Positions 15,961 to 39,313 of a DNA stretch of 46,041 nucleotides are shown in pieces. The position numbers and the translations under genes were made by a program. Positions within the stretch are counted from its first letter, which is position 1. Every line of letters begins with the position of its first letter. The DNA comes from a virus, in the IMG/VR virus record IMGVR_UViG_3300044705_000016, positions 1 through 46,041 of that record; one strand, written 5' to 3'. Under the pieces are notes generated by a model. It ran no database searches. It worked only from the letters and a program-made list of their open reading frames with translations, and had not been told where the DNA came from.

Positions 15961-15995
15961 GGTGCGTTGCTGGACCGGGGGTGTGTGCCAATAAC
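15961..15995 (+). promoter_or_regulatory. Late promoter motif P1 (partial), ahead of terminase
   Basis: GGTGCGTTGC matches the first ten bases of the late motif. AATAAC at 15990-15995 could be the -10, with the ATG at 16004. The motif is flanked by CCCGGT/ACCGGG arms (15958-15963 and 15974-15979). Weakest of the six copies. Confidence 0.45.
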
Positions 15996-16003
15996 CGTGA
16001 CCT

Positions 16004-16519
16004 ATGGACGGCGATCCTGAAACTTACGGGCCTGCGATGCTGGCGCTGACGGAGAAGCAGCAGCGGTTTGTGCTGGCGATGGCGGCTGATCCGTTCGGGA
16101 ACCAGACGAAGTGGGCGCGGGCGGCCGGCTACCGGAACAGCGAAGGTGGGATGCGGGTGAAGGGGCACAATCTGTTCCACGACCCGAAAATTCAGGCTGC
16201 GGTTCAGGAGTTTGGGTCGAGCGCGCTGAAGACGCTGGGGCCGATGATTGCGGCGGCCGGGATGTTGCGGATCGCCCGGAACCCGAAGCACAAGCAGCAC
16301 TTCAAGGCGCTGGAGGCGATCGCCAATCGGACCGGGATGCACGAGACGACCGAGCACAAGGTGACGGTCGACCACAAGGATCGGAGCCCGAAGGGGCTCG
16401 AGCAGCGGCTGACGCGCGCGCTGGAGCGGCTGCAGAAGCTCGGAAGGCTGCCGCCGGACATGGCGGCGCGGCTCGCCCCGCCGGTCGACGCCGAGTTCAA
16501 GGTGGTCGATGGCAAGTGA
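16004..16519 (+). CDS. terS: Terminase small subunit, 171 aa
   Basis: MLALTEKQQRFVLAMAADPFGNQTKWARAAGYRNSEGGMRVKGHNLFHDPKIQAAVQEFG is the Terminase_2-type N-terminal HTH (residues ~13-70) that binds the packaging site. A helical oligomerisation region follows, and a C-terminus (GRLPPDMAARLAPPVDAEFKVV) that would contact the large subunit. Overlaps the large subunit gene by 11 bp. Start 16004 has no good ribosome site; the in-frame ATG at 16037 is an alternative. Confidence 0.85.
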   Translation: MDGDPETYGPAMLALTEKQQRFVLAMAADPFGNQTKWARAAGYRNSEGGMRVKGHNLFHDPKIQAAVQEFGSSALKTLGPMIAAAGMLRIARNPKHKQHFKALEAIANRTGMHETTEHKVTVDHKDRSPKGLEQRLTRALERLQKLGRLPPDMAARLAPPVDAEFKVVDGK

Positions 16520-17963
16520 CGATCTTGCCGCCTTTGCGGCCATGGTGGAGGAGGTCGAGCGCGAAGCCGACCTTGCGACCTACGAGGGCCGGGTCCTCTC
16601 GTTCGAGCCGTATGCGAAGCAGGTGCAGCATCTCGGGCTTGGGCGGACGCGGCGCGAGCGGCTGCTGATGGCCGGCAACCGGCTCGGCAAGTCCGAGACC
16701 GGGGCTTACGAGGCAGCGATGCACCTGACGGGGCGCTACGACGACGCGAAGGTCCCGTGGACCGGCCGCCGGTTCGATGGCCCGACCAAGGGGTGGATTG
16801 CCGGGGTGACGTCGCTCGACGTCCGCAACGTCTGCCAGACCAAGCTGTGCGGCCAGTACGGCGTCCAGGCGATGTTCGGCAGCGGGATGATCCCGAAGGA
16901 GGACATCGTGGACGTGTCGCTGGCGCGCGGCGTGACCGACGCCTACGACACGATCCAGGTCCGGCACGTCTCCGGCGGCATCTCGGTCGCCCAGTTCAAG
17001 TCCTACGAGCAGGGGCGGGAGAAGTTCCAGGGCGAGGGCCTGGACTGGATCTGGCTCGACGAGGAGCCGCCGCTCAACGTCTACAGCGAGGCGCTGACCC
17101 GCATCGGCGAGCGCGACGGGCTGCTGTGGATGACCTTCACGCCGCTCGAAGGGCGGTCGGACGTCGTGATCCGGTTTCTCGACGAGCCGAGCCGCGACCG
17201 GGCGGTCACCACGATCACGATCGACGAGGCGCCGCATATCACGCCGGCCGCCAAGGCACGCATGCTCGATGGCTACCTCGACCACGAGCGCGAGGCGCGC
17301 GCCCAGGGCGTGCCGATGCTCGGCTCCGGCCGAATCTTCAAGTCGCCGGAGAGCGCGATCATCGAGCCGGCGATCGAGCAGGTGCCGCTGTTCTGGCGCA
17401 AGCTGTGGGCGATCGACTTCGGCATCGGGCATCCGTTCGGCGCGGTGCTGCTCGCCTGGGAGGAGCCGGACGGCGCCGACGTGATCCATGTCCTGCACAC
17501 GATCCGGATGCCGGACGCCCTGCCGATCGTCCACGCCGCGGCGATGAAGGCGGTGGCGGCCGAGGTGCCGGTGGCCTACCCGAAGGATGGCGACGACCGC
17601 GAGAAGGGATCCGGCGAGCCGCTGGCGAAGCTCTACCGGGCGCACGACCTCAAGATGCTGGACAGCTACGCGGAATGGGAAGCGGGCGGCATCTCGACCG
17701 ACGCCGGCATCGAGGAGTGGGACGCCCGCGAGAAGACCGGCCGGCTCAAGGTCGGGGCCCATCTCGCGGACTGGCTGGAGGAGCGGCGGTTCTACCACCG
17801 CAAGGACGGCAAGATCGTCAAGATCAAGGACGACCTGATGTCGGCGACGCGCGTCGGCCTGATGGCGAAGCGCTTCGCGCGCGCCGTCCCGCTCGGCAAG
17901 TCGGTCGCCCGGCGCCGCAACGACGGCATGGCGGCCGGGGTCGACTTCGACGTCCTCGCCTGA
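16509..17963 (+). CDS. terL: Terminase large subunit, 484 aa
   Basis: DNA-packaging motor. ATPase domain with Walker A AGNRLGKSE (~55-63), Walker B GLDWIWLDEEPP (~176-187) and the coupling motif WMTFTPLEG (~204-212). Nuclease domain of RNase-H fold, with the first acidic residue in LWAIDFGIGHPFGAVLLAW (~299-317) and a later Asp in KIKDDLMSATR. Typical length. Belongs to the Terminase_6 type common in BPP-1-like podoviruses. Start overlaps the end of terS. Confidence 0.93.
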   Translation: MASDDLAAFAAMVEEVEREADLATYEGRVLSFEPYAKQVQHLGLGRTRRERLLMAGNRLGKSETGAYEAAMHLTGRYDDAKVPWTGRRFDGPTKGWIAGVTSLDVRNVCQTKLCGQYGVQAMFGSGMIPKEDIVDVSLARGVTDAYDTIQVRHVSGGISVAQFKSYEQGREKFQGEGLDWIWLDEEPPLNVYSEALTRIGERDGLLWMTFTPLEGRSDVVIRFLDEPSRDRAVTTITIDEAPHITPAAKARMLDGYLDHEREARAQGVPMLGSGRIFKSPESAIIEPAIEQVPLFWRKLWAIDFGIGHPFGAVLLAWEEPDGADVIHVLHTIRMPDALPIVHAAAMKAVAAEVPVAYPKDGDDREKGSGEPLAKLYRAHDLKMLDSYAEWEAGGISTDAGIEEWDAREKTGRLKVGAHLADWLEERRFYHRKDGKIVKIKDDLMSATRVGLMAKRFARAVPLGKSVARRRNDGMAAGVDFDVLA

Positions 17964-17982
17964 TGTTCCACGTGAAACTGAC

Positions 17983-18020
17983 GGTGCGTTGCCGCAAAAG
18001 GCCACTGGCGCGAGCCTGAC
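17983..18020 (+). promoter_or_regulatory. Late promoter motif P2
   Basis: GGTGCGTTGCCGCAAAAGG at 17983-18001, followed 17 bp after TTGCCG by GAGCCT and then an ATG at 18021 that opens only a 23-codon frame. It looks like the same cassette as the later copies. The first real gene begins at 18101. Confidence 0.65.
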
Positions 18021-18054
18021 CATGCCCTCCATGGGCGACGCCTCCCTGACTTTC

Positions 18055-18087
18055 GGCCGGCTGTCCCTTTGTCCGGCCGGCCCTTTT
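18055..18087 (+). terminator. Possible hairpin terminator between P2 and the next gene
   Basis: GGCCGG (18055-18060) pairs with CCGGCC (18073-18078), followed by GGCCCTTTT. The stem is short and the T-run brief, so it may be a weak terminator or a mere GC-rich repeat. Confidence 0.35.
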
Positions 18088-18100
18088 GCATGAGGAACGC

Positions 18101-18391
18101 ATGCCGACACCCCACGAACACCTGCGCGCCTTCGAGGACGAGAAGCTCGGCGAGGACTGCGAGCGCCACGAGGGCGCGGTGGAGAAGGGCAGCGGGTCCC
18201 GATTCAGCGAGATGAGCGCGACCGACAAGGCCCGCCACGCCGCGCTGGAATATCTGATCGAGGCCGAGGCGCTGGTCGGACGGGCCCGCGCGGGTCTCGA
18301 CGCTGCGATCGCCAATCACGCATCCGCGGCGGCGCGTGCCGGCGTCGAGATCGAACCGGAAGAGCCGGCCGACGAGGACGAGGAGGACTGA
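18101..18391 (+). CDS. Acidic head-module protein, 96 aa
   Basis: MPTPHEHLRAFEDEKLGEDCERHEGAVEKGSGSRFSEMSATDKARHAALEYLIEAEALVGRARAGLDAAIANHASAAARAGVEIEPEEPADEDEED: helical, ending in a strongly acidic tail. Located between terminase and portal; unassigned structural or assembly factor. Confidence 0.7.
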   Translation: MPTPHEHLRAFEDEKLGEDCERHEGAVEKGSGSRFSEMSATDKARHAALEYLIEAEALVGRARAGLDAAIANHASAAARAGVEIEPEEPADEDEED

Positions 18392-18395
18392 CGCC

Positions 18396-18797
18396 ATGGT
18401 CACCAAGACGCCCGCCGAGCTCGCCGAGATGCGCGCCGATGTCGAGGCCGGCAAACTGCCAAAGAACGCCATCGAGCAGTATTACGCCGGCGAGGAGAAG
18501 GCCGTATTCGGCCACGACGTGAAGCACGACCGGCACAAGAACCCGATCGAGCAGGGCATCGGCTCGCCCGGCCATGAGACCCTGAATCATTTCAAGGCGA
18601 TCCGCACCTACGAGGGCGAGGACGCCTACCACGCGGCCTGCGCGCAGCACTGGAAGGACAATCCCGAGCACGCCGCGAAGCTCAAGCTGCCCAAGGCCGC
18701 GCCGCCCAAGCCGGCCGCCGCCGGCAACTCCGAGATCGAAGCGCTCAAGGCGCAGATCGCCGCGCTCGAGAAGCTGATCAAGGCCAAGGCGAACTGA
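18396..18797 (+). CDS. Hypothetical head-module protein, 133 aa
   Basis: MVTKTPAELAEMRADVEAGKLPKNAIEQYYAGEEKAVFGHDVKHDRHKNPIEQGIGSPGHETLNHFKAI...ends with a coiled-coil-like helix (EIEALKAQIAALEKLIKAKAN). Conserved-looking phage protein without a named function; starts 4 bp after the preceding stop. Confidence 0.7.
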   Translation: MVTKTPAELAEMRADVEAGKLPKNAIEQYYAGEEKAVFGHDVKHDRHKNPIEQGIGSPGHETLNHFKAIRTYEGEDAYHAACAQHWKDNPEHAAKLKLPKAAPPKPAAAGNSEIEALKAQIAALEKLIKAKAN

Positions 18798-18799
18798 CC

Positions 18800-19009
18800 A
18801 TGGCAGCGATCGGGATGAGCGTCCCGGGCGCTACCGATCTGCTCGGCAGCGCGCTCGGCAACCAGGTGGCCGGCGAATCCGAGGACGAGCGCCGCCGCCG
18901 GCTGCTTGCGATGCAGCAGAACAAGCTTCTGCCGACCTCGACGCCCGGCGCCTCTGCGCTCGGCCTGTCGTCGACCGGATACAGCGTGGCAGGGGGACTC
19001 GGCCGGTGA
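18800..19009 (+). CDS. Small head-module protein, 69 aa
   Basis: MAAIGMSVPGATDLLGSALGNQVAGESEDERRRRLLAMQQNKLLPTSTPGASALGLSSTGYSVAGGLGR. A Gly/Ser-rich N- and C-terminus surrounds a charged helix (EDERRRRLLAMQQN), as in small proteins found before the portal in BPP-1-like phages. Function unknown. Confidence 0.65.
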   Translation: MAAIGMSVPGATDLLGSALGNQVAGESEDERRRRLLAMQQNKLLPTSTPGASALGLSSTGYSVAGGLGR

Positions 19010-19263
19010 GTTTCAAGCGCGAATTCAAGGACGCCCTGGTCACCCCGCCGTTCGGCATCGTGCCGGGCCCGCAGGCGCGCCGGCTGACCAGCGGCAATAA
19101 CCTCGACGGCACGTTCTGGCTGGAGATCGAAGGCGTTCCGGGCCGGATCAACCTGCGGCCGGCCGAGGTCGAGATGATCTCGCTCGCGTGGCTGCGCGCG
19201 CTCGGCCACACGATCGACGAGGTCCCCGCGCTCGCGGAGGTCGGAGTTGGCCGGAATAACTGA
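19006..19263 (+). CDS. Hypothetical protein before the portal, 85 aa
   Basis: GTG start overlapping the previous stop (GTGA). MSFKREFKDALVTPPFGIVPGPQARRLTSGNNLDGTFWLEIEGVPGRINLRPAEVEMISLAWLRALGHTIDEV: a beta-rich middle followed by a helix. No family named. Overlaps the portal start by 17 bp. Confidence 0.65.
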   Translation: MSFKREFKDALVTPPFGIVPGPQARRLTSGNNLDGTFWLEIEGVPGRINLRPAEVEMISLAWLRALGHTIDEVPALAEVGVGRNN

Positions 19264-20995
19264 GAAGACGCGGCCGTATCTGCCCGACGAAGAGGAGACC
19301 GTCGACGAGACGATGCGCCTCTTCAACGAGCTGACCACGTACCGCAACGTGCACGCGGCGCAGTGGGAAGAGGCGGCACAGCTCATCGACCCGGACAGCC
19401 GGAACACGTTCTACTACGGCTCGTATAATTTCCCCGGCATCAAGAAGACGCAGCAGCAGGTCGACTCGACCGGCGCGCTCGCGCTGCAGGGGTTCTGTGC
19501 GATCGTCGACAGCCTCGTGACGCCGAAGACCCAGAAATGGCACGGCCTCGAAGGCGACGAATACGTGATGAAGGACCCGGCCTCTCGCCGCTGGTTCGAC
19601 GACGTGCGCGACATCCTGTTCCGGTTCCGCTATCGCCCCGAGGCGAATTTCGCGTCGCAAAATTTCGCCAACTGGAAGTCGCTCGGCGGCTTCGGCAACT
19701 CGGTGATGTACATCGACGAGCTCGACACCCGGGTGCACCAGCATGCGGTCGGCCTGCGCTACCGCGGCGTGCCGCTCGGCGAGTGCTTCTTTGCCGAGAA
19801 CCACCAGCACCAGGTTGACACCATGGTGCGCTGGTTCCGGCGCACCGCGCGCCAGGCCGTGCAGATGTTCGGCGAGGAATGGCTACCACCGACGCTGCGG
19901 CCGGCGCTGGAGCGCGATCTGCAGACGCCGTATCAGTTTCTGCACTGCGTCAAGCCGCGCGGCGAGGACTACGACGATCAGCGGCTCGACGAAAAAGGCA
20001 TGCCGTTCGAGAGCTATTACATCTCGATCGAGGGCAAGTGCATGATGGGGCCGGAGCGCGGCTATCGCGTCTTCCCCTATGCGGTGTCGCGCTACATCCA
20101 AACCCCCGGCGAGGTCTATGGCCGCGGCCCGGCGCAGCTCGTCCTGCCGGCGCTCAAGACCCTCAACGTCGAGAAGCGCATCTTCCTCAAGACCGGCCAC
20201 CGCGCCGCCGATCCGGTGCTGCTCACCCGCGATGACGGCCTGGTCGACGGCTTCAACCTCGAGCCCGGCCGCATGAACAAGGGCGGCGTGTCCGAGGACG
20301 GCAAGCCACTGGTGATCCCGCTGCCGACCGGCTCGGTGCAGATCACCGAGGAGATGATGAAGGAGGAGCGCGGCATCGTCGACACGATGTTCCTCACCTC
20401 GCTGTTCAAGGTGCTGACCGAGCACCCCGACATGACCGCGACGCAGGTGATCGAGCTGCTCAACGAGCGCGGCATGCTGGTGGCGCCGACGCTCGGCCGC
20501 CAGCATACCGAATATGTCGGCGGCCTCGTGCCGCGCGAACTCGACCTGCTGTCGCGGATGCGTGGCCCGCGCGGCCGGCCGGTGCTCCCGCCGATGCCGC
20601 CGCGGCTGCGCGAGGCGATGGGCTATTACGAGGTGGTCGACACCTCGCCGCTCGCCATGGCGGCCCGCGGCAACGAAGTGGCGGGCCTCTACCGCTTCGC
20701 CGAGTTTGGCAAAGGCATCGCGACCGATACCGGGGACATGACGTTCCTCGACGCGATCGACGCCGAGACCGCCGGCCCCGAGGCCGCGCGGCTGATGGGC
20801 CTGCCGGAGCGCTGGGTTTCGAGCAGCGACAAGATCGCGGCGAAGCAGAAGAACCGGCAGCTTGCGCAGCAGCGTCAGGAGCAGATCCAGGCGATGCCGG
20901 CGCAGGCGGCAATGATGAAGGCGCAGGCCGCGCAGCAGAAGGCCGGCATTCCGGCGCCGGGTCAGCCGGGTGCCCAACCGGGGCCAATGCAATGA
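19247..20995 (+). CDS. Portal (head-to-tail connector) protein, 582 aa
   Basis: T7 gp8/Head-tail_con family: N-terminal TVDETMRLFNELTTYRNVHAAQWEEAAQLIDPD, STGALALQGFCAIVDSLVTPKTQKWHGL, LGGFGNSVMYIDE, GVPLGECFFAENHQHQVDTMVRWF, and the conserved QTPGEVYGRGPAQLVLPALKTLNVEKRI, then a Gln/Ala-rich tail. Forms the dodecameric DNA gate at one head vertex. TTG start at 19247; the next ATG lies 51 residues in and would cut conserved sequence. Confidence 0.92.
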   Translation: MAGITEKTRPYLPDEEETVDETMRLFNELTTYRNVHAAQWEEAAQLIDPDSRNTFYYGSYNFPGIKKTQQQVDSTGALALQGFCAIVDSLVTPKTQKWHGLEGDEYVMKDPASRRWFDDVRDILFRFRYRPEANFASQNFANWKSLGGFGNSVMYIDELDTRVHQHAVGLRYRGVPLGECFFAENHQHQVDTMVRWFRRTARQAVQMFGEEWLPPTLRPALERDLQTPYQFLHCVKPRGEDYDDQRLDEKGMPFESYYISIEGKCMMGPERGYRVFPYAVSRYIQTPGEVYGRGPAQLVLPALKTLNVEKRIFLKTGHRAADPVLLTRDDGLVDGFNLEPGRMNKGGVSEDGKPLVIPLPTGSVQITEEMMKEERGIVDTMFLTSLFKVLTEHPDMTATQVIELLNERGMLVAPTLGRQHTEYVGGLVPRELDLLSRMRGPRGRPVLPPMPPRLREAMGYYEVVDTSPLAMAARGNEVAGLYRFAEFGKGIATDTGDMTFLDAIDAETAGPEAARLMGLPERWVSSSDKIAAKQKNRQLAQQRQEQIQAMPAQAAMMKAQAAQQKAGIPAPGQPGAQPGPMQ

Positions 20996-21426
20996 TCATT
21001 GATCCGCTGCACACCATGCACGCGCAGCAACTGCGCGACAAATGGCAGGCCCGCATCCTCGCCGAGAACAAGGGCCGCGCGTTCGTGGTCGCGCTCGCGA
21101 TCATCGCCAAGCGCTGGCCGGAGGCGCTCGAAATCCTGCTGCGCGTCGTGTTCGAGAGCTTCCGCGACATCGGCCGGCCATTCATCCGGTCGCGCGCCAT
21201 CGTGCAGAAGGACGGCAGCGTGATCGCTGAGGTCGTGCCGCGCATCGGGCCGCCGCGCTGGCAGATCGTCTACGACAGCGAAGCCGAGATGGTGAAGGAA
21301 TTCCGCGACATCGCCGACCGGCTCCGGCTTGACGACGCCGAGCGCGTCGAGATGACCGAGACGCTCAAGATGTGGGTCGCCGCCGATCGCCGCGTCGACT
21401 TCAACGGGGAGCGGCACGTCGCATGA
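20992..21426 (+). CDS. Hypothetical structural-module protein, 144 aa
   Basis: MIIDPLHTMHAQQLRDKWQARILAENKGRAFVVALAIIAKRWPEALEILLRVVFESFRDIGRPFIRSRAIVQKDGSVIAEVVPRIGPPRWQIVYDSEAEMVKEFRDIADRLRLDD. Helical first half, beta middle, helical end. Overlaps the portal stop by ATGA. Role unknown. Confidence 0.7.
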   Translation: MIIDPLHTMHAQQLRDKWQARILAENKGRAFVVALAIIAKRWPEALEILLRVVFESFRDIGRPFIRSRAIVQKDGSVIAEVVPRIGPPRWQIVYDSEAEMVKEFRDIADRLRLDDAERVEMTETLKMWVAADRRVDFNGERHVA

Positions 21427-22672: not shown

Positions 22673-22673
22673 C

Positions 22674-22851: not shown

Positions 22852-22890
22852 GGTGCGTTGCCGCAAGATCGGACCGCCCGCATTCTCGCG
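22852..22890 (+). promoter_or_regulatory. Late promoter motif P3, upstream of the capsid gene
   Basis: GGTGCGTTGCCGCAAGATCGG at 22852 onward, five bases after the DUF3008-like stop. The -10-like hexamer (CATTCT) is 17 bp after TTGCCG. It stands 288 bp before the capsid ATG, so this transcript would have a long leader. Confidence 0.65.
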
Positions 22891-22912
22891 CCTGCCTCTG
22901 GGTTGCGGACCG

Positions 22913-22953
22913 ACGAACGGCTGGGGCTTTTCTCCTTTCACCCAGCCGTTCGT
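22913..22953 (+). terminator. Strong 13-bp hairpin in the capsid leader
   Basis: Perfect 13-bp inverted repeat (22913-22925 and 22941-22953, ACGAACGGCTGGG/CCCAGCCGTTCGT) with a 15-nt pyrimidine-rich loop, followed by TTTCC. Could end transcripts from the scaffold side, act as an attenuator, or stabilise the capsid mRNA. Confidence 0.55.
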
Positions 22954-22985
22954 TTCCGCCCCATCCCAGCGTCGCCGGGTCCCGC

Positions 22986-23116
22986 AAGGACAAGCCCGGC
23001 AGGGGAGTATCCGGCCCGGTAGCACGGCAAGCCGGCTCTGACTGACAAGGCCCCGCCGCCGCGGCGGACAAGCCATAGCGACTGATCGTCTGGCCCCCTT
23101 ACCGGACAAGGCCCCC
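22986..23116 (+). repeat. Four spaced GACAAG(G/C)CC repeats in the capsid leader
   Basis: GACAAGCCC near 22989, GACAAGGCCCC near 23044, GACAAGCC near 23067 and GACAAGGCCCCC near 23105. Spacing is irregular (about 55, 23 and 38 bp), so it is not a CRISPR array. The last copy is 30 bp before the capsid ATG. Confidence 0.5.
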
Positions 23117-23139: not shown

Positions 23140-24066
23140 ATGGCTGAGAACCAAGGCCTCTATCCGCAGTTCACCGCGCAGTACACCTCGAACCTCGAGC
23201 TGTTGCTGCAGCAGAAGACGTCCAAGCTCCGCGGCAAGGTGCGCGAGCAGGGCGGCTTCGTCGGCAAGATGGCATCGCCCATCAACCAATACGGCTCGGT
23301 CGTGATGAAGGCCCCGAAGGGCCGCTTCTCGCCGCTCGACAGCACGCAGCCCGACGCCTTCCGGCCCTGGATGTTCCCGGTGCCGGGCGAGCTCCCGCAG
23401 CTCATCGACTCGTTCGACAAGCTGGAGACCATCGTCGACCCGCAGTCGGCCTACGTCGAGGCCGCCGCCGCGGCGACCGCCCGCTACTGGGACGACGGCC
23501 TGATCGCCAACGCGGTCGCTTCCCGCCAGCTCGGCACGGACGTCGGCTCGCTCACCACCGAGACGTTCTCGACGACGAACTTCCAGGTGGCGTCGACCTT
23601 CGGCTCCTCGTCGGCCTCCGGCCTGACGGTGGCGAAGATCATCGAGGCGAAGCGCATCTTCGAGCACTACCACAACGACCTGGAGATGGACCCGCCCTGC
23701 ATGGTGATCGGGTCGCAGCAGCACTCCGATCTGTTCAACCAGGTGCAGGTGGTATCGACCGAGTTCCAGAAGATCGACGCGGTGGTGACCGGCGGCAAGG
23801 TCCGCCAGATCCTCGGCATCGACATCGTGATCTCGGAACGCCTGTCGGTCTCCGCGAACGTCCGCACCGTCCTCGTGTTCGTCAAGTCTGGCCTCATGCT
23901 CGGCCTGTGGCGCGACATGGAGAACCGCATCAGCATCCGCAACGACCTGTCGGGCGAGCCCTGGCAGCTTCTCACCTCCACGATGTACGGAGCGCTGCGG
24001 ATGCAGCCCGGCAAGGTGGTGTCGATCCTCTGCTCCGACACGACCGGCGCAGACATCACCCCGTAA
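23140..24066 (+). CDS. Major capsid protein, 308 aa
   Basis: MAENQGLYPQFTAQYTSNLELLLQQKTSKLRGKVREQGGFVGKMASPINQYGSVVMKAPKGRFSPLDSTQ... GLWRDMENRISIRNDLSGEPWQLLTSTMYGALRMQPGKVVSI. The length and position after scaffold, together with the VIGSQQHSDLFNQ and closing GALRMQPGKV segments, match podovirus capsid proteins of the BPP-1 type; an HK97-like fold is expected from the family. GGGGACAGCT precedes the ATG. Confidence 0.85.
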   Translation: MAENQGLYPQFTAQYTSNLELLLQQKTSKLRGKVREQGGFVGKMASPINQYGSVVMKAPKGRFSPLDSTQPDAFRPWMFPVPGELPQLIDSFDKLETIVDPQSAYVEAAAAATARYWDDGLIANAVASRQLGTDVGSLTTETFSTTNFQVASTFGSSSASGLTVAKIIEAKRIFEHYHNDLEMDPPCMVIGSQQHSDLFNQVQVVSTEFQKIDAVVTGGKVRQILGIDIVISERLSVSANVRTVLVFVKSGLMLGLWRDMENRISIRNDLSGEPWQLLTSTMYGALRMQPGKVVSILCSDTTGADITP

Positions 24067-25453: not shown

Positions 25454-26071
25454 GTGAAGCGGCTTCTCGCATCGTTCGCGCTCGCGGCCCTCCTCGCGGG
25501 GGCCGCAAACGCACAGCAGGCACAGTTCAGGACCGGCATCGGCAACACGACCGCGCCGGGCGTGACGCTGATGTGCCTCAACGCGGCCGGCCTCGCCGTC
25601 CCGCTGGCGCTATGCGACCAGTGGCCCGGCGTGTCGCAGCCGTTGCTCGGCGCCACCCCCGAGCAACGCGGGCAGGTCGTCACGATCAGCCCGAACAGCG
25701 GCGCCCCGAATCCCTATCCGGTGGGCTCCGTTCCGCTGACCGAGACGGCGACGGGCACCACCGGCGGCACCACGGCGACGTTCCCGGCCATTGCCGGCAA
25801 GACCAATTGGCTGTGCGGCTTCAGCGTGTCGCCCGGCAGCGCGACCGCGGCGATCACCATCACGGTCACCACGACCGGTCTGACAAACAACTTCACCCTG
25901 AACGTCGGCGCGCCGGTGACGGCGGCCGGCACCACCGGCACCCCGCTCGTTCATCCGATCACGCCATGCGTCCCGGCCAGCGCCACCAACACGGCGATCA
26001 CCGTGGTGGCCGGCGCGCTCGGCTCCGGCGGCGTCGGTCAGGACGTCAACGCCTGGGGCTATCGGCAGTAG
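25454..26071 (+). CDS. Second beta-rich protein with Sec signal peptide, 205 aa
   Basis: GTG start with GGAGGCGC upstream. Signal peptide MKRLLASFALAALLAGAANAQ (cleavage after ANA). Mature protein: QFRTGIGNTTAPGVTLMCLNAAG..., PYPVGSVPLTETATGTTGGTT, then NWLCGFSVSPGSATAAITITV and VNAWGYRQ at the end. Likely exported or surface-displayed. No family recognised. Ends 1 bp before late motif P4. Confidence 0.7.
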   Translation: MKRLLASFALAALLAGAANAQQAQFRTGIGNTTAPGVTLMCLNAAGLAVPLALCDQWPGVSQPLLGATPEQRGQVVTISPNSGAPNPYPVGSVPLTETATGTTGGTTATFPAIAGKTNWLCGFSVSPGSATAAITITVTTTGLTNNFTLNVGAPVTAAGTTGTPLVHPITPCVPASATNTAITVVAGALGSGGVGQDVNAWGYRQ

Positions 26072-26104
26072 GTGCGTTGCCGCATAGGTGGCCGCCAATA
26101 GCCT
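26071..26104 (+). promoter_or_regulatory. Late promoter motif P4, leaderless type
   Basis: GGTGCGTTGCCGCATAGG at 26071; TTGCCG 26077-26082; 16-bp spacer; TAGCCT at 26099-26104; six bases; ATG at 26111. No Shine-Dalgarno fits between. The geometry predicts that the mRNA starts at or beside the ATG. Confidence 0.7.
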
Positions 26105-26110
26105 GCCACC

Positions 26111-27427
26111 ATGGCCGAATTCAATAGCGCCACCGACATCGGCAACCGGGGGCTTCAGCACGTCGGTGCGTCGCTGATGGGCTCGCTCGGCTTTGCGGAG
26201 CAGACCAAGCAGGCCCGGCAGGTCTCGTTCTGCTACGGCAAGCTGCGCCGCGCCCAGCTCCGGGAGAACGTCTGGAAGTTCGCGACCAGGCGCGCGGCAA
26301 TCCGCCCGATCAGTGCCTCGACCATGTTCCTGGTGCCGGCACTGTGGACGCAGAGCACTACCTATTTCCGCGGCTCGATCGTCTCCGACGAGAACGGCGT
26401 GCCGTGGCGGTCAAAGATCCCGGACAACACCGGCAACCAGCCGGAGAATTCGCCGAACACCTGGGAGCCGTATTTCGGACCGCTGACCGTCTCGCTGTGG
26501 GACACCACCGGCACCACCGCGTATTTCGCGGGCGAGCTCGTCTACACGACGGCCGGAGACGGCACCAACCGGGTCTATGCGTCGCTGATCAACGCCAACT
26601 CGGACAATCCCGCGACCGCGACCGCATGGAGCGCGACCACGACCTACTACAAGGACCAGGTCGTGACCGAGAACTCGATCGCGTACATGAGTCGGATCGA
26701 CAACAACCTGAACCAGGACCCGGCGACGACCTTCTTCGCCGAGTGGGCGAGCACGACGACCTACGCCTCCGGCACCAAGGTCACCGGCTCCGACGGCACG
26801 ATCTACACGTCGAAGGTCAACGGCAACGTCAACCACGATCCGACGCTCGACGTCACGGCGACGTTCTGGACGAACACCGGCATCTTGTCGCCGTGGGATA
26901 CGACCTTCGTCGGCGGCACCGGCTCGGTGAACTGGCTGCAGATCGGTGGCAAGGAGTTCCCGAATGGCGTCACGGTGACGACGCTCGACACGTCCTGGCC
27001 GATCGGCGTCGGGCCGGTGTCGCAGACCGTCACCCGCAATGCCTACCGGCTGCCGGCGGGCTTCATCCGCATCGCGCCGGATGACCCGAAGAACCTGACC
27101 GGCGTCGGCGCATGGGCGCCCGTCGGCCACGCTGCGAAGGACTGGCTGTTCGAGGGCCCCTATCTCGTCTCATGGGATTCCAATCCGATCGTGCTGCGCT
27201 TCGTCGCCGATGTGGTCGATGTGACCAGCATGGACGACTTGTTCTGCGAAGCGCTGGCCGCAAAGATCGGTCAGGAGGTGTGCGAGCCGCTGACCCAGGA
27301 GACCACGAAGATCACGGTGTGCACGCGCGCCTACAACGATGCGGTGTTCAAGGCCAAGGCTCAGAACGCGATCGAGATCGGGTACGAGGACCCGCCAGAG
27401 GATGACCTGATCCTCTGCCGCTATTGA
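26111..27427 (+). CDS. Tail tubular protein A-like, with four carbohydrate-binding-like repeats, 438 aa
   Basis: The N-terminal ~75 residues (ATDIGNRGLQHVGASLMGSLGFAEQTKQARQVSFCYGKLRRAQLRENVWKFATRRA) and the end (LFCEALAAKIGQEVCEPLTQETTKITVCTRAYNDAVFKAKAQNAIE) match T7 gp11-type tail-tube adaptors. Inserted between are four units of about 40 residues, bounded by Trp79, Trp118/130, Trp173, Trp212 and Trp253. Each reads W...T-Y--G-V-----Y-S----N--P----W, the ChtBD3/CBM5-12 pattern. They may project from the tail and bind cell-surface glycans. Read from late promoter P4. Confidence 0.8.
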   Translation: MAEFNSATDIGNRGLQHVGASLMGSLGFAEQTKQARQVSFCYGKLRRAQLRENVWKFATRRAAIRPISASTMFLVPALWTQSTTYFRGSIVSDENGVPWRSKIPDNTGNQPENSPNTWEPYFGPLTVSLWDTTGTTAYFAGELVYTTAGDGTNRVYASLINANSDNPATATAWSATTTYYKDQVVTENSIAYMSRIDNNLNQDPATTFFAEWASTTTYASGTKVTGSDGTIYTSKVNGNVNHDPTLDVTATFWTNTGILSPWDTTFVGGTGSVNWLQIGGKEFPNGVTVTTLDTSWPIGVGPVSQTVTRNAYRLPAGFIRIAPDDPKNLTGVGAWAPVGHAAKDWLFEGPYLVSWDSNPIVLRFVADVVDVTSMDDLFCEALAAKIGQEVCEPLTQETTKITVCTRAYNDAVFKAKAQNAIEIGYEDPPEDDLILCRY

Positions 27428-30526: not shown

Positions 30527-32196
30527 TGCCCAACATCCACGGCTTCGACACACCCCAGCTTCAGCTTCGCCCCTCCGACATGGGTCCGGAGGCGATGGCC
30601 GCGGCCGCGCGTCGTGGCGGCGCTTTCTTCAACCAGGCCGCGGAGGACTTCGGGCAGATCGGTCAGCGTGTCGGCTCGGCGGCGCGTGATGTCGGGCAGG
30701 TTGTGCTCGATCACATGGATCATCAGCAGATCACCGAGGGCGCCGCCATGGGCGCCCAGATGTTCGACACGCTGACCGAGCAGAAGAACAAGATCGTCGC
30801 CGGCATCGATCCGAACGATCCGCAGTACGGGCAGAAGGTCGAGGTCGCACTCAAGCAATGGCGCGAGGAGCAGCTTGAGCCGCAGCTACAGAAATTCGGC
30901 GAAGGCTTTACGACCGAGAAGTCGCAGACGTGGGCCGAGCACTTCGTTGCGCAGACGCGCAACCACATGTTCACGCAGACTGCGGCGGACATCTCGACGG
31001 CCGCAGCCATCGGCATCCGCAACAGCGTCCGCACGTTCCAGAATTCCGCATCGAACACGGCGTTCAACGATCCATCCGCGATGCCAGGGCTGCTTGCCGC
31101 AGCCGAGCATTCGATTACCGGCATGGTGTCGTCATCGAATGTGAAGGGCATCGATGCCGCCCGTATCCAGAGCGAGCAGCTTGAGGCGACCAAAGAGCAG
31201 ATCGTGAAGTCGGCGGCGCTCGGCTACATCGACAAGTTCGCGAAGGTGCCGTCGTGGGTCAGCGACCCGCAATATTCGAAGTACGTGAGCGGCGCCGAAC
31301 TGAAGACTTTCCAGCACAATGCCGAGGCTCGGGTTAAGGCGAACAACTACTACGACCGGCAGACTGCCCTCGTACAAAAGCAGCAAGCCGATCTCGCTGT
31401 TCATCAGGCGGCAGGTGACATCATGTCGACCAGCCTGACGCCGGACCCGACGAACCCGTCGCGCCTGATTGTCGCGCCCGACGCGATGAAAAAAGTGCTC
31501 GACATGGTTCGGAAGAATCCGGATGCGCCGAGCGCCGCGGCGACGGCTCGGACGCTGATCGACTTCTTCGAGCACCAGCAGAACCAGCGCGCGCAGCCGG
31601 TCACGGATGACGCGGTGGTCAAGTCCGACCTGATCGCGCGGCTCGGCGACCCGAACAAGCCGACAGGCGAGATCGATGTGCTGCGCGCAGCGGCCGACGA
31701 CAAACTGTCGCCGCACACGACCACGCTGCTGCGCGAGATGGTCAAGTCGATGGGGCCGGACCTGACGCACGACCCGCTGGTGCACAGCGCGATCGACGCG
31801 GCGAAGGAGCGCCTTGGCGTCACCACGGTGGTCGACGGCCACGAGCGGTTCGCCAACTTCATGCAGGCGTTCCTGCCGACCTACCTCAAGCAGAAGCGCG
31901 ACGGCACGCTGCCGCCGAACTGGGGTGACCTGAAAGACCCGAACTCGCTGATCAGCCAGTCGCTCAAGGCCTACGAGCCGAGCGCCGCCGCGCGGATGCA
32001 AGGGCACCTGCTCAAGAGCCTCGGCGCGACCGGTGACATTATGAATCCCTCGGCGCCGGGTGGGGGTAGCTTCCGGCCGCCGGCCAACTGGGAATGGAAT
32101 CCCAAACGCGAGCAGTATCGCGATCCGGCCGGCAACCTCTACGACAAGGCCGGCAAGCCGGTCAGCGGCGGCCCGGTCGTGCCGCAGTCGAGGTAG
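30526..32196 (+). CDS. Internal virion protein, gp15-like, 556 aa
   Basis: Long, mainly helical (DHMDHQQITEGAAMGAQMFDTLTEQKNKIVAGIDPNDPQYGQKVEVALKQWREEQLEPQLQKFGEGFTTEKSQTWAEHFVAQTRNHMF...) with a low-complexity end (GGGSFRPPANWEWNPKREQYRDPAGNLYDKAG). Position and composition match the second ejection protein. ATG at 30526 overlaps the gene before (TGATG). Confidence 0.7.
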   Translation: MPNIHGFDTPQLQLRPSDMGPEAMAAAARRGGAFFNQAAEDFGQIGQRVGSAARDVGQVVLDHMDHQQITEGAAMGAQMFDTLTEQKNKIVAGIDPNDPQYGQKVEVALKQWREEQLEPQLQKFGEGFTTEKSQTWAEHFVAQTRNHMFTQTAADISTAAAIGIRNSVRTFQNSASNTAFNDPSAMPGLLAAAEHSITGMVSSSNVKGIDAARIQSEQLEATKEQIVKSAALGYIDKFAKVPSWVSDPQYSKYVSGAELKTFQHNAEARVKANNYYDRQTALVQKQQADLAVHQAAGDIMSTSLTPDPTNPSRLIVAPDAMKKVLDMVRKNPDAPSAAATARTLIDFFEHQQNQRAQPVTDDAVVKSDLIARLGDPNKPTGEIDVLRAAADDKLSPHTTTLLREMVKSMGPDLTHDPLVHSAIDAAKERLGVTTVVDGHERFANFMQAFLPTYLKQKRDGTLPPNWGDLKDPNSLISQSLKAYEPSAAARMQGHLLKSLGATGDIMNPSAPGGGSFRPPANWEWNPKREQYRDPAGNLYDKAGKPVSGGPVVPQSR

Positions 32197-35100: not shown

Positions 35101-35208
35101 TACCCGGCGCTGATCCAGGCCGGCATCGATCAGCGCATGGACCAGATCAACGGCGTGACCCTGTCGCGGCCGAAGAAGGCGCCGACCAGCCTCGAAGCCC
35201 TGCAATAG
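32200..35208 (+). CDS. Internal virion protein, gp16-like, 1002 aa
   Basis: Large protein. Pro/Ala-rich N-terminal third (PADEWQPVAAAPQPQSDDGWQPV..., AEAAAASVPRPPEAAPP), then long helical regions (RNAMQAMLAATEEVKAAAREV, MLRRDMWVEQVVGHRAEWGRTGNVFQEFLART). It includes semi-hydrophobic stretches (ALISGPTTHAKYIGANALFAGYEAGVVTPLAG; LIAGSAIGAWAMNMVMNDRMTGFGP) suited to membrane insertion. No transglycosylase signature is visible, unlike T7 gp16. Third ejection protein by order. Confidence 0.75.
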   Translation: MADPADEWQPVAAAPQPQSDDGWQPVTSPTIDSRDKPQQAEVQRSYVGRVWDAFMNEGAAAFGDAPLGMSDKDIQWFQSHGMFREGVNQADPNPFRAFADGIVFNAIRAGDWGKRQLAGFSRGLGAAAYEAGAPKDVAGIIAGEEPMLPFAAPHIPVERAPMLAEGRDLGVIGPERPPVDVAKPAEAAAASVPRPPEAAPPARAIAAEAPSDVVRSEQPNGWRARFDEFVGKINTGEDAKDLIRNAADQNDDFPAARAGDIPLRQVEDLANAAGVPAETVDRTGAGRLLQNDNQVRNAMQAMLAATEEVKAAAREVRTDGSPENLQKLQEAMLRRDMWVEQVVGHRAEWGRTGNVFQEFLARTKEENGFTEWMKDQDRSPNGLKKLAEQLDGLEPGQVPKFLSDANKPGFADKAMWYWVNALISGPTTHAKYIGANALFAGYEAGVVTPLAGALGTLRRAVEGNREGVFAGEAGPRLWGLVAGVPDAMRAARSAFKTGLQTPLPGEVAQNILPAQNRAFSSNIQPIPGWLGKVIGIPSRGASGIHSFFNFLGYRASIEAQAYRQAAKEGLSPTDEAFWQRRQAAAANPTPEMMTLANEEGYRLTYISELGPAMKAVSTAVRKVPGGRLIMPFLHIPFNILARAAEGSPLAFLPEESRNNLLGRNGAVKQDMAVARLIAGSAIGAWAMNMVMNDRMTGFGPTDEKERAQWLATGHQPYSVRIGDYWLSFNRLGSIGTMLGLHTNLAEAIPHIKPDSDELTKAVAMTVHSTGRLLEDEVGMQGLANLMGAIDEPDRKGSRYVASFAGSWLPYSSALRQTASAMDPYMRETKGVVDGLRYYIPGQRQGLEFKRDWLGRPIPNAGYGGDLPVPGVSAIIQHRTAIPDALGMEMQALDLHPAKPEDRIAGVKLTPRLYDHYQAAAGALTESTLTNLINMPDWHSMPPIVRQQAFQKAISASRKAAGAAIQMQYPALIQAGIDQRMDQINGVTLSRPKKAPTSLEALQ

Positions 35209-35213
35209 CCAGC

Positions 35214-35247
35214 GGTGCGTTGCCGCATAAGGCCCCGTCCGTAGCCT
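35214..35247 (+). promoter_or_regulatory. Late promoter motif P5, leaderless type
   Basis: GGTGCGTTGCCGCATAAGG at 35214; TAGCCT at 35242-35247, six bases before the fibre ATG at 35254. Same spacing as P4 and P6, and no ribosome site in between. Confidence 0.7.
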
Positions 35248-35253
35248 CGCGGC

Positions 35254-37824
35254 ATGCTGACACGCATCGCCGCGCTGCTGCTCGCCCTGCTGGTCGCCGT
35301 TCCCGCGGCAGCGCAGCAATTCCCCCAAACGCTGCCGTATCATAGCGTGTACGGCCGCATCGGCGCCGCGCCTGGCGATACCGGGCCCGGGCAGGCCATC
35401 CCCTTCGCAACGCTCTCGCAGCAGCTCAACTCGTCGCTGTCGGGCGGCGTGGCGAAGATGTTCCCGCACGTCGCGCAGACGAGTTCGTCAACCGACGCCT
35501 ACACCGCGGTCGACCCCTACGGAAACGCGATCTCCTGCACCGGCACGAACAGCCAGTGCCTGCAGGAGTTCCTGACGGCGACGACATCGAATGGCTGGCC
35601 GGCCGCGGTCTACTGCCAAGGCACCGAATTCCCGTCCGGCTCCGAGCCGATCTTCATCAACACCACGGTGCAGATCACCGTCCCGGTCGCTCAGGACTGG
35701 TCGTTCCACTCCTACGGCTGCAACCTCAACATCAATGTCACGACGTCGTCCGGCCTCGTGATCGACAGCGAGGGCGCCAGCGAATTCGATTGGGACGGCA
35801 AGATCGTCTACAACGTCACCTCGCCGAACGGGAACACCACCACGAACCCGTCGTGCGCGGTCCTGATCCACCCGACCACGCACACCCAGGACGGTTTCGC
35901 CGGCCTCTACGCCAAGCGCATTCGCATCGGCAGCCCGGTGGTCAACCCGGTCGGCGGCGCCACCGCAACGGCGGCCGTCTGCGTCAACAACGATACCGGC
36001 TCGACGATCCAGCAGACGCTGTGGTTCGATGAGGTCAACGGCACCGGCCACGCCGTCTACGGCTTCCTCCAGTTCGGCAACACGGTCTCGACCGGCTTCA
36101 AGCAGAATTACGTGCATATCGGCCAGTCGCACGGCTTCACCACGGCCGGTATCAACCTCGGCTTCAACGGCACGAACGGTTCGAATAACAAGGGAAACAT
36201 CTGGGATGTCCCGGCGTGCAACGGCGCGGCTGCGCTGTCGCGCTGCTTCGATACCTGGGGCTCGAACGATCAGGGCCGCATCGGGCAGATGGACGCTGCC
36301 GACGGCGGCATGCAGTACGGCATCGTGTTCGAGACGGGCGCGAACAACAACAATTTCACCTACGGCAACAGCGCGGCCTCGACGAACGCCTTCGTCGACA
36401 ACGGCACCTGCAACTCGGTTACAGGACCGCAAGGGAGCAGCGTCGCACTCTGGGGAACCACGAGCGGCTGCACTAAGGTGACCCCGGCGGGGACCGCGTC
36501 AGGCACGCTCACCGCACCGTCGGCGACCGACCAGCTCATCGCCCGCGCGACCACCGACACGTTGACCAACAAGACCTACGACACGGCCGGCACCGGGAAT
36601 GTCTTCAAGATCAACGGCACCGCCATCACGGCGGTCTCGGGCAACACGGCCACGGTCGCGACCACCACCGGCGCGCTGACCAGCACGCACTGCGTCAACA
36701 TCGACGCGAGCGGCAACCTCAAGGACAGCGGTTCGACCTGCGGCGGCGCGGGCGGCTCGCCGGGCGGCTCTGACACGCAGGTCCAGTACAACAACTCTGG
36801 CGCCTTCGGCGGCGCGGCCGGTTTTGTTTTCGACAAGACGAGCAAGGTCACCCTCGGTGTCGCCGGGACGAGCGTCGGCGGAATCGCGCTCAACAACGCC
36901 ACGTCAGGCTCGATCACGATCAACCCGGCGACCGGCGCGCTCGGCACCGTCACGGCGACCCTGCCGGCTAACACTGGCACGATCGCCGAACTCAATCTCG
37001 CGCAGACCTGGACGGCGGCGCAGACCCACAACTCCGGCACCCTCAAGCTGGCCGGCGCCACGTCGGGCACCCTGACAGTCAACTGCGCCGGAACCTGCGG
37101 CACCAATACGCTGACCCTGCCAGCCGGCACCACCGACTTCAGCGCCACCGGCGGCACGTCCCAGGTCGTCAAGCAGACCTCATCCGGCGGCGCGTTCACG
37201 GTCGGCCAGTTGCAGTGCAGCGACCTCTCGAACGGCGCGACCGGATGCTCGACCGCGACCGGCACGAGCGGCGCGACGCTGCCGCTGCTCAACGGGACGA
37301 ACACGTGGTCGGGCGCGCAGACGTTCAACAAGGACGATGCGCTGATCACGGCAGGCAACAGCACCAGCACCGTCAAGCCATCCGGATTGCTCTGCCAGGG
37401 CCTCTCCTCGACCGGCAACACCGCCGACGCCGGGCCCGACACGCTGCAGAGCTGCACGGTTCCGGCCAATACGCTCGATGCGGTCGGTCGCGGGCTTCAC
37501 GTCGAGACGTGGGGCGTGTTCGCCGCCAACGGGAACACCAAGACGGTGACGGTCACCTGGGGCGGCACGACGATCTACACCTCGACCGCCCTGACCGGCA
37601 GCGGCCTCAACTGGTACGTCTGGTGCAACATCTACAAGACCGGAGCGAACGCCCAGACCGCGGCCTGCACCGGGATATTCCAGAACACCGTTCCGGGCTC
37701 GAACGTGAACGCCACAGCGATCACCGACACGAGCTCGGCGACGATCGTCACAACTGGGACGTCGGGATCATCTGCCGCAAACGATATCGTGTCGAAAGGC
37801 CAAACCGTGATGGTGATCAATTGA
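35254..37824 (+). CDS. Probable tail fibre/spike with N-terminal signal-like segment, 856 aa
   Basis: MLTRIAALLLALLVAVPAAAQQ is a textbook Sec signal followed by FPQTLPYHSVYGRIGAAPGDTGPGQAIPFATL. Then come a beta-helix-like Gly/Asn/Thr-rich body (residues ~90-400), fibre-type repeats (TDTLTNKTYDTAGTGNVFKING, DTQVQYNNSGAFGGAAGFVFD, TLPANTGTIAELNLAQTWTAAQTHNSG) and a beta C-terminal head (VETWGVFAANGNTKTVTVTWGG...). Composition and place after the ejection genes indicate the receptor-binding fibre. The signal is odd for a cytoplasmically assembled virion part. Confidence 0.78.
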   Translation: MLTRIAALLLALLVAVPAAAQQFPQTLPYHSVYGRIGAAPGDTGPGQAIPFATLSQQLNSSLSGGVAKMFPHVAQTSSSTDAYTAVDPYGNAISCTGTNSQCLQEFLTATTSNGWPAAVYCQGTEFPSGSEPIFINTTVQITVPVAQDWSFHSYGCNLNINVTTSSGLVIDSEGASEFDWDGKIVYNVTSPNGNTTTNPSCAVLIHPTTHTQDGFAGLYAKRIRIGSPVVNPVGGATATAAVCVNNDTGSTIQQTLWFDEVNGTGHAVYGFLQFGNTVSTGFKQNYVHIGQSHGFTTAGINLGFNGTNGSNNKGNIWDVPACNGAAALSRCFDTWGSNDQGRIGQMDAADGGMQYGIVFETGANNNNFTYGNSAASTNAFVDNGTCNSVTGPQGSSVALWGTTSGCTKVTPAGTASGTLTAPSATDQLIARATTDTLTNKTYDTAGTGNVFKINGTAITAVSGNTATVATTTGALTSTHCVNIDASGNLKDSGSTCGGAGGSPGGSDTQVQYNNSGAFGGAAGFVFDKTSKVTLGVAGTSVGGIALNNATSGSITINPATGALGTVTATLPANTGTIAELNLAQTWTAAQTHNSGTLKLAGATSGTLTVNCAGTCGTNTLTLPAGTTDFSATGGTSQVVKQTSSGGAFTVGQLQCSDLSNGATGCSTATGTSGATLPLLNGTNTWSGAQTFNKDDALITAGNSTSTVKPSGLLCQGLSSTGNTADAGPDTLQSCTVPANTLDAVGRGLHVETWGVFAANGNTKTVTVTWGGTTIYTSTALTGSGLNWYVWCNIYKTGANAQTAACTGIFQNTVPGSNVNATAITDTSSATIVTTGTSGSSAANDIVSKGQTVMVIN

Positions 37825-38027
37825 TGCGCGCGATGGCTCTTGCCGCCCTGCTGCTGCCGTCGCTCGCCATGGCGCAGGAGACCGCCCCGCGTGAACAGGC
37901 GCTCGCCGACAAGCTGGTCGCTGAGATCAGCGCCAACGTCGATGCGCGGGCGCAGATCATTTCGCTCCAGCGGCAATTGGCTGCCGCCCTGGCCAGGATC
38001 AAGGACCTGGAAGCGAAGAAGGACTAG
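37824..38027 (+). CDS. Small exported coiled-coil protein, 67 aa
   Basis: Signal peptide MRAMALAALLLPSLAMAQE (cleavage after AMA), then a short helix with heptad-like pattern: ALADKLVAEISANVDARAQIISLQRQLAAALARIKDLEAKKD. The ATG overlaps the fibre stop (TGATG). A periplasmic trimerising or chaperone-type peptide for the fibre, or a spanin-like part, are both possible. Confidence 0.65.
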   Translation: MRAMALAALLLPSLAMAQETAPREQALADKLVAEISANVDARAQIISLQRQLAAALARIKDLEAKKD

Positions 38028-38869
38028 TCTCGGATACCGAGCAGGGCGAGGTGATCCCGGGTCCAGTGAGGCGGCATCGATCGGCTCGGCGCCGATAAGT
38101 CGACGATCCGGTTGAATCCCATCTTCTCGAGCGAAAAGCGCAGCAGGCGCTGCGACACGGTCGTGACGTCGAAGCATCCTGGGAATCTGGCATCAGTGTA
38201 ATAGCGGTTCGCCGCATGGAAGCGGATCGAGAGATCGTCTTCCGCATGACACGGCGTCAGCACCAGAAGGGCGCGGCGGGCTGCCGACCCGAGCCATGCT
38301 AGATGGCGCAGCGGCTCGCTGAGGTGCACCAAGACGGCGACAGACAGCACCAGGTCGAAGCGGCTGTCGGCCTGCGTCGCGCCATCGTAGCGCCAGCGGT
38401 CGAAACGAACCTTCGTCCCGCAGATGCTATTGAGCAGCTTGATCGTGTCCGAATAGTCCTCACTGTCCAGCCCTCTGGCGATGGCACCGCGCCGAGCGAA
38501 GGCCAAGGGGAAATAGCCGCTGTTGCAGCCGACATCGAGAACCGTTTGCCGCTCGACCGAGCCGAGCGCGCCGATCACTTCCTCGACCAAGCCATCGTAG
38601 AATCGGCGCATCGCAGCGTTGGCCTCGAAGAACGGCCCAGGGTCCGTGGCGACCTGCCGCGACAGGAATTCGGGATCTGCATCGCCAGCGCTGGCATCCG
38701 GGCAATAGATCGACGGTGTCTCGCGCGCATGTCCTGCCAAGATGCTGAGGCCGGACCCAACGGCGAGCCGCTCGCTGAACGTGAATGGTTGGTAGTTGAG
38801 GAGGCCACGAAAAGCGAGCCGCCTGGCGGCCTGCACATGCTTCGGGGACGCGATGCCACGGAAGTCCAT
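38024..38869 (-). CDS. Class I SAM-dependent methyltransferase (moron-like), 281 aa
   Basis: Minus-strand gene among plus-strand late genes. Motif I VLDVGCNSGYFPLAFARRGA (~114-133), acidic loop ARGLDSEDYS (~136-145), motif for the third strand FDLVLSVAVLVHLSEPLRHLAWLGSAARRALLVL. Resembles the DUF1698/tRNA-cmo5U or sugar/lipid O-methyltransferase group; substrate not evident. Start at 38869 chosen because upstream in-frame sequence is the late promoter region. Ends 4 bp inside the preceding plus-strand gene. Possibly alters host surface glycans or the lysogen's physiology. Confidence 0.8.
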   Translation of the reverse strand: MDFRGIASPKHVQAARRLAFRGLLNYQPFTFSERLAVGSGLSILAGHARETPSIYCPDASAGDADPEFLSRQVATDPGPFFEANAAMRRFYDGLVEEVIGALGSVERQTVLDVGCNSGYFPLAFARRGAIARGLDSEDYSDTIKLLNSICGTKVRFDRWRYDGATQADSRFDLVLSVAVLVHLSEPLRHLAWLGSAARRALLVLTPCHAEDDLSIRFHAANRYYTDARFPGCFDVTTVSQRLLRFSLEKMGFNRIVDLSAPSRSMPPHWTRDHLALLGIRD

Positions 38870-38916
38870 GGGCCGCAACCCTAGCGGACTCAACCCCGGG
38901 CTGTCCACGGCCCTAC

Positions 38917-38950
38917 GGTGCGTTGCCGCATAAGAGGTATCGGCCATCTT
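38917..38950 (+). promoter_or_regulatory. Late promoter motif P6, leaderless type, ahead of the lysis module
   Basis: GGTGCGTTGCCGCATAAG at 38917; CATCTT six bases before the ATG at 38957. It restarts plus-strand transcription after the inverted methyltransferase gene. Confidence 0.7.
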
Positions 38951-38956
38951 CGCCGC

Positions 38957-39313
38957 ATGACCCGCTGCGGCATTGCCCTCCCGCTGATCCTACTGCTCGC
39001 CCTGCCGGCGGCGGCGCGTGACCACGGGCAGTTCGGCGCGACCGATCCGGCGATCAGCCAGTGGTTCAGGAGCCTGCGCAGCGTGGGCGGCGCCTGGTGC
39101 TGCGACCAGGCGGACGGTTCGCGCGTGGAAGACCCGAACTGGCGGATCGAGCAGGACGGAACCTATTCGGTGCGCCTCGACGGTGACTGGCAGCGCATGC
39201 CGCCGAACGCAATCGTGACAGCAACCAATCGCGTGGGCTTCGCGGTGGCGTGGACCTATCTGGTCGACGGCCATCAGGTGGCCCGCTGCTTCATGCCCGG
39301 AACCACATCATGA
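38957..39313 (+). CDS. Exported protein of unknown function, 118 aa
   Basis: Signal peptide MTRCGIALPLILLLALPAAARD (AAA cleavage), mature part with GGAWCCDQADGSRVEDPNWRIEQDGTYSVRLDGDWQRMPPNAIV...VDGHQVARCFMPG. The WCCD...DG..V...DG.W..P..AI...RCF.P pattern recurs in small secreted proteins of rhizobial phages and prophages, function unknown. First gene of the lysis block. Confidence 0.7.
   Translation: MTRCGIALPLILLLALPAAARDHGQFGATDPAISQWFRSLRSVGGAWCCDQADGSRVEDPNWRIEQDGTYSVRLDGDWQRMPPNAIVTATNRVGFAVAWTYLVDGHQVARCFMPGTTS

Follow-up and report, generated by a model that had tools for sequence, protein, structure and literature searches.

A putative and mostly leaderless late promoter class, with a candidate regulator, in a lineage of temperate phages with T7-like virion genes

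INTRODUCTION

When the same short sequence stands in the gap before one late gene group after another, three questions arise: whether it marks a promoter, where the transcripts would begin, and which protein would read it. Such a repeat occurs in the window studied here, by which we mean the whole stretch of 46,041 nucleotides of IMG/VR virus record IMGVR_UViG_3300044705_000016 (GC 64.5%). The window encodes an integrase (1260-2258, phrog_1) and a lambda-like immunity region, in which a Cro/YdaS-like gene (9448-9681, plus strand) diverges from a CI-like repressor gene recognized by homology (roughly 9060-9390, minus strand). It also encodes a primase/helicase, a terminase and T7-like portal, head and tail proteins. 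A megablast comparison with 50,697 phage records gave no match, the nearest named portal is 46% identical, and no prophage turned up when bacterial genomes were scanned with the portal.

An original prediction, made from the window alone, held that the repeat is a phage-specific late promoter giving leaderless mRNAs and that a sigma-like gene at 3991-4539 encodes its reader. In proteobacteria and their phages, leaderless mRNAs are usually regarded as exceptions, whereas here a whole late regulon in many related phages seems designed around them. The lambda cI mRNA is leaderless (PMC9031893), and absence of a leader has been described as frequent among phage transcripts (PMC5312081). Sinorhizobium meliloti, an alphaproteobacterium, has 171 leaderless mRNAs, every one of which starts with AUG (PMC3616915).

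RESULTS

Copies of the element in the window

Sequence searches confirmed five exact copies of GGTGCGTTGCCGCA, at 17983, 22852, 26071, 35214 and 38917, and one partial copy with two mismatches at 15961. All are on the late (plus) strand and intergenic, the copy at 26071 beginning on the final base of a TAG stop codon. For the 12-mers inside the motif about 0.02 occurrences are expected by chance, against the five seen on one strand. Looser matches with up to three mismatches were at chance level (11 found, 11.9 expected). Among the genes opened by the copies are those for the terminase small subunit, the major head protein, a tail protein and lysis; the gene behind the copy at 35214 has no family match.

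At three copies the predicted geometry is exact: TTGCCG is followed by 16 bp, the hexamer TAGCCT, TAGCCT or CATCTT, 6 bp and the ATG, which lies 40 bp from the motif start. The first of them (26071-26084; −10 TAGCCT at 26099-26104) has its predicted transcription start on the A of ATG 26111, which opens a tail protein gene (phrog_394). The second (35214-35227; −10 TAGCCT at 35242-35247) precedes ATG 35254 of a gene for an 856-residue protein. The third (38917-38930; −10 CATCTT at 38945-38950) precedes ATG 38957 and opens the lysis region, in which a gene for a 118-residue protein comes first, followed by an endolysin/glycoside-hydrolase-like gene (39250-39951, PF08924). By their predicted starts these three copies would be leaderless. 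The partial copy GGTGCGTTGCTGGA (15961-15974) is probably leaderless too. It opens the terminase small subunit gene at ATG 16004 (+43), three bases beyond the 40-bp position, and its −10 is poor; orthologous sites precede this gene in most relatives.

The remaining two copies do not fit the claim that all six are leaderless. The copy at 17983-17996, with a −10-like GAGCCT at 18012-18017, opens the genes after the terminase, and its ATG at 18022 (+39) starts a frame of just 23 codons. The copy at 22852-22865 (−10 CATTCT at 22881-22886) has no nearby ATG; the major head protein gene starts 288 bp further on, at 23140. Since neither has a long frame starting at +40, both must be leadered if they are active. 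Terminator-like hairpins come after two window sites, in one case at about 18063-18088 behind the 23-codon frame. Tested across sites, a rule of a terminator after each promoter was not general.

Conservation in related phages

Relatives were collected from IMG/VR by a terminase scan (36 loci) and a portal-alignment scan (80 loci), and for 21 relatives a complete or nearly complete contig was analysed. G001, the relative whose terminase is closest (66% identity), has GGTGCGTTGCTG as its most over-represented 12-mer, a result reached without using the window motif. The core [GA]GTG[CT]GTTG occurs in 19 related genomes at 110 late-strand sites, compared with 15 on the opposite strand and 15 for a reversed-pattern control. 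The exact 9-mer gave 104 late-strand and 13 other-strand sites over the 80 loci. Among the literature matches listed for this 9-mer there was unrelated sequence only.

Several phages use a one-base variant of the core in all their copies: GGTGTGTTG occurs six times in G023, and AGTGCGTTG six times in G034 and five times in G032 and is also used in G035. These four genomes were first classed as motif-negative, and the exact-motif count thus understated conservation. Given such genome-specific variants, the core behaves as if a phage protein reads it. Counting against this picture, cores with GGTGC and AGTGC are mixed in G031, G017 and G019. A scan of viral contigs with GGTGCGTTGCCGCATA returned coincidental matches only, so the CCGCA extension of the motif is mostly particular to the window genome.

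A set of sites picked by gene and not by motif gave the same picture. The element, followed by an in-frame ATG at +39 to +43, stands upstream of the orthologue of the tail protein gene at 26111 in 20 of 22 phages. At least 19 of these 20 sites agree at each of positions 2-9 (GTGCGTTG); the first base is G in 15 sites and A in the other 5. The relatives carry the same element, −10 and ATG spacing before the same genes. Together with the start-codon features described below, this comparison strongly supports the prediction of a phage-specific late promoter that gives leaderless mRNAs, though not at all six window copies: the repeats are very probably promoters, and the class they would form is common to a lineage of related temperate phages whose virion genes are T7-like. 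A separate terminase scan yielded 25 loci, mostly proteobacterial, and these cellular relatives of the terminase had neither a series of late-type sites nor the candidate regulator described below.

Promoter anatomy

The regions downstream of 190 distinct sites were aligned without supervision and without use of the ATG. They contain a block [GC][CT]AnnnT[CG] located 16-18 bp after the TTG hexamer (mode 17), with an alignment score of 453 against at most 7.5 for ten letter-shuffled sets. In the −10 element (C/T)AnnnT the A is present in 94% and the T in 84% of the sites. These bases correspond to the A at −11 and the T at −7 of sigma-70-family promoters, far above shuffled controls, and a TTG-type −35 sequence stands at the 16-18 bp spacing of that family.

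By standard sigma-70 numbering we placed +1 at 13 bases after the start of the −10 block. For the 94 sites with an ATG at +39 to +43, the distance from block start to ATG was 13 (37 sites), 14 (28), 15 (12) or 12 (7), together 84 of 94. With the −10 lying 16-18 bp after the TTG hexamer, the predicted +1 falls at, or one to two bases from, the A of the ATG, and in 65 of the 94 sites the predicted leader is 0 or 1 base. Many of the sites lacking an ATG at these offsets still show this −10; their transcripts would have leaders, in some cases with an SD-like GGAG ahead of the gene.

Other features of the start codons agree with this placement. Of the 110 sites in 19 phages, 66 are followed by an ATG at a distance of 39-43 bases, predominantly at +40 to +43, and 64 of these open frames of at least 60 codons; 1.8 ATGs per offset are expected by chance. 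GTG and TTG showed no peak at the same offsets, which is what leaderless mRNAs would lead one to expect. Shine-Dalgarno-like tetramers precede 4 of the 64 leaderless-class genes and 96 of 182 other genes. The base at −1 is C or T in 59 of the 64 as compared with 100 of the 182; in both comparisons the control genes were assigned the start of the longest ORF, which makes them imperfect. Bacterial RNA polymerase usually prefers a pyrimidine at −1, and the bias suggests that the ATG itself is the transcription start site. We consider it likely, from these patterns, that the promoters are mostly leaderless.

Candidate polymerases and sigma factors

The spacing and the −10 positions fit sigma-70, which raises the possibility that a host sigma factor suffices for recognition, without any phage factor. 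Alphaproteobacterial sigma-70 promoters can keep the TTG with a poor −10, and in S. meliloti the sigma-70 −10 is poorly conserved (PMC3616915). A nearly invariant core of 9 bp with genome-specific variants nevertheless goes beyond what sigma-70 needs and tracks the phage, and we regard recognition by the host factor alone as distinctly unlikely. The preferred reading adds a phage activator to the host enzyme. It was inferred from the combination of a poor −10 with a long upstream element that is nearly invariant within genomes and variable between them.

The sigma-like gene of the original prediction (3991-4665, minus strand) has a weak Sigma70_r2 match, with E-values of 4e-4 when one genome was searched and 0.036 in another search. 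It is the only match to Pfam sigma region 2 in 11 phages and lies below the cut-off, so that nothing matched in the ten other motif-bearing phages. Matches to sigma region 4 were short, scattered and likewise below the cut-off. A blastp search of the other motif-bearing phages tested gave no relative, nor did a scan of viral contigs, and the structure predicted for the protein alone was of unusable quality (pLDDT 48). An ECF-type factor would go well with a long −35 and a weak −10, and a phage sigma factor reading the whole promoter, encoded by this gene in the window and by others elsewhere, was considered on that ground. The motif persists in phages without the gene, however, and profile and blastp searches found no sigma factor shared by the motif-bearing phages. 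The sigma-like gene was thus probably wrongly taken for the reader, and a phage sigma factor of any kind seems improbable to us.

As in phage T7, T7-like virion genes occur in the window together with repeated late promoters of the same orientation. Unlike in T7, the promoter is made of two parts, one of them a sigma-70-like −10, and a single-subunit RNA polymerase gene was not found. Searches with PF00940 gave no match in 11 phages and none in the control genomes, and no early ORF of the size of a T7-type polymerase is present in the window or in G001. Because the profile search was without a positive control, the ORF sizes are the stronger evidence.

A candidate late regulator

The last identified gene before the first late promoter (14600-15238, plus strand) is single-copy and was named LR, for candidate late regulator. 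Iterated profile searches with 132 early-region ORF seeds singled out its family as the only early one present in 17 of 17 motif-bearing genomes for which sequence could be examined and absent from all 3 motif-lacking genomes (G003, G018 and G033). Among 46 loci with enough upstream DNA, 20 had both site and LR, 18 neither, 6 LR only and 2 the site only, counts that are not independent events as some of these contigs are near copies. By co-occurrence LR is the best supported candidate reader, ahead of the sigma-like gene. The phages are related, the comparison included only three motif-lacking genomes and six loci have LR but no recognized site, so the link may also reflect shared ancestry.

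The N-terminal half of LR is predicted to form helices of the HTH type and its C-terminus basic helices. XRE/HTH proteins come first in its profile and fold rankings, weakly and short of significance, with E-values of 0.2 (PDB profile), 1.5 and 0.6. Foldseek matches had E-values above 0.1, and tblastn of one LR against named phages gave no match.

The immunity region supplies another potential reader. Asymmetric, mostly one-directional and intergenic sites in temperate phages are reminiscent of mycobacteriophage stoperators, and the repeats might be operators at which a CI-like repressor silences rather than activates; the repressor family is present in 16 of 17 motif-bearing genomes. The tight coupling to a −10 and an ATG is unexpected of stoperators, and apart from one site in G031 no late-type site comes closer than 600 bp to the repressor gene in any phage. 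The sites thus keep clear of the immunity region, which makes the repressor a poorer candidate than LR, and silencing by it appears highly improbable.

The position of LR, last before the late region, is also that of lambda Q, and the hairpins behind two window sites would be in keeping with a Q-like antiterminator that is loaded at these promoters and does not activate initiation. Such a function would not account for several sites per genome instead of one, most sites have no downstream terminator-like hairpin, and the weak −10 suggests help at initiation. We therefore think antitermination unlikely and return to LR as an activator.

DISCUSSION

In the mechanism that we propose the promoter would consist of [GA]GTG[CT]G, the −35 hexamer TTGnnn, a spacer of 16-18 bp and a weak −10 (C/T)AnnnT, whose A at −11 and T at −7 would be read by a sigma-70-family factor. 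An activator encoded by the phage would sit over the −35 region and bring in the host polymerase carrying its main sigma factor. In most late operons the first transcribed base would be the A of the ATG or lie one to two bases from it, giving leaderless mRNAs, and other copies would give leadered ones. LR would be the most likely activator, binding [GA]GTG[CT]G over the −35, with GGTGCGTTG as its predicted target. Sequence comparison shows the element with its geometry and conservation and its association with LR; from these we infer promoter activity, the start site, late timing, the polymerase and the role of LR. Host sigma-70 polymerase with a phage activator is the probable machinery, and we put the chance that LR is this activator at about even. 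An activator-dependent, mostly leaderless late promoter class read by LR is, as a whole, the best explanation of the data and somewhat probable.

The lambda CII promoters and the T4 MotA middle promoters are activator-dependent sigma-70 phage promoters. The putative late class resembles them in its weak −10, its normal spacing, a phage-specific element over or beside the −35 and repetition before several operons; it differs in the element, in the candidate protein and in the predicted start on the ATG. With other leaderless phage and alphaproteobacterial transcripts it would share an AUG at the 5′ end and the lack of a Shine-Dalgarno sequence, whereas in the present phages one late promoter class, serving structural and lysis genes across the lineage, seems to have leaderlessness built in. 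GafA of the Rhodobacter gene transfer agent is a phage-type DNA-binding activator of structural, lysis and its own genes in an alphaproteobacterium; its promoter includes a ribosome-binding site, and the passages considered report no leaderless transcript (PMC6363796). LR may be likened to GafA in its proposed role as a late activator.

Activator-type promoter parts are known, and coupling of the promoter to the start codon across a late regulon appears to be new; we found no report of it in the open-licence literature. Tentatively, and with somewhat less than even confidence, we suggest that a temperate phage lineage controls its late regulon by a new activator family, LR, acting at promoters welded to start codons. 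Leaderless late mRNAs would then be the rule and might shift translation toward phage messages late in infection. Selective leaderless translation in infection thereby becomes testable. The −10 keeps a constant distance of six or seven bases to the ATG across many related phages, which provides a sequence rule for start-codon annotation in these phages along with a named candidate late switch.

Promoter-associated elements

The first late promoter, which in the window lies at 15961 (+) and opens the terminase small subunit gene, contains a palindrome of the form TAAC-N(1-3)-GTTA (or TAAT) in 15 of 17 relatives (among them the related phage genomes G001, G019, G020, G022, G023, G025 and G034), and in G030 in addition. 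The palindrome is positioned either over the −10 element (+27 to +30 from the start of the promoter motif) or within the spacer (+16/17), and the copy in this promoter is nearly the only one per genome. The window carries a degenerate counterpart (TAACCGTGA) at 15992-16000 in the same promoter. Judged from the sequences, the palindrome looks like a putative operator specific to the first late promoter.

Several relatives have one promoter copy on the minus strand that faces a small divergent gene and precedes the terminase site by about 600 bp. Such copies were located at G001 44978 (−), G025 9077 (−), G026 30128 (−), G022 23123 (−) and G020 755 (−), and further copies facing a divergent gene occur in the related loci L061 (1084) and L074 (793). 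The ATG of the divergent gene is mostly found at +40 to +46 from the promoter copy. Some of the encoded products are HTH-like in appearance, and that of G025 matches sigma region 4 at an E value of 0.001.

Leader regions

Each of the two leadered promoters of the window (17983 and 22852) has a terminator-like hairpin no more than about 100 bases downstream, at 18063-18088 and about 22910-22955, respectively. The predicted transcription start of the G019 promoter at 7479 falls within a hairpin, which therefore could form in read-through RNA only. In most relatives, including G001, G017, G019, G020 and G026, and in the window at about 22960-23110, repeats of the CCCGCAAGG(A/G)CAAGGC type are conserved in the mRNA leader of the major head protein. 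G003 has no late promoter, yet its head gene too is preceded by a similar repeat, of the AAGG(A/G)CAAG type. No match to an Rfam family was found.

Other repeated sequences

The window ends (30-150 and 45896-46020) are near-identical over more than 100 bases, with one mismatch, and their outer flanks differ; they do not form an exact terminal repeat.

The early region of two phages harbors paired TAACCGTTA sites with a spacing of 123 bp, at 31480 and 31603 in G027 and at 3575 and 3698 in G023. These pairs are perhaps origin iterons or operators; the G027 pair consists of tandem AACCGTTACGCAAC repeats.
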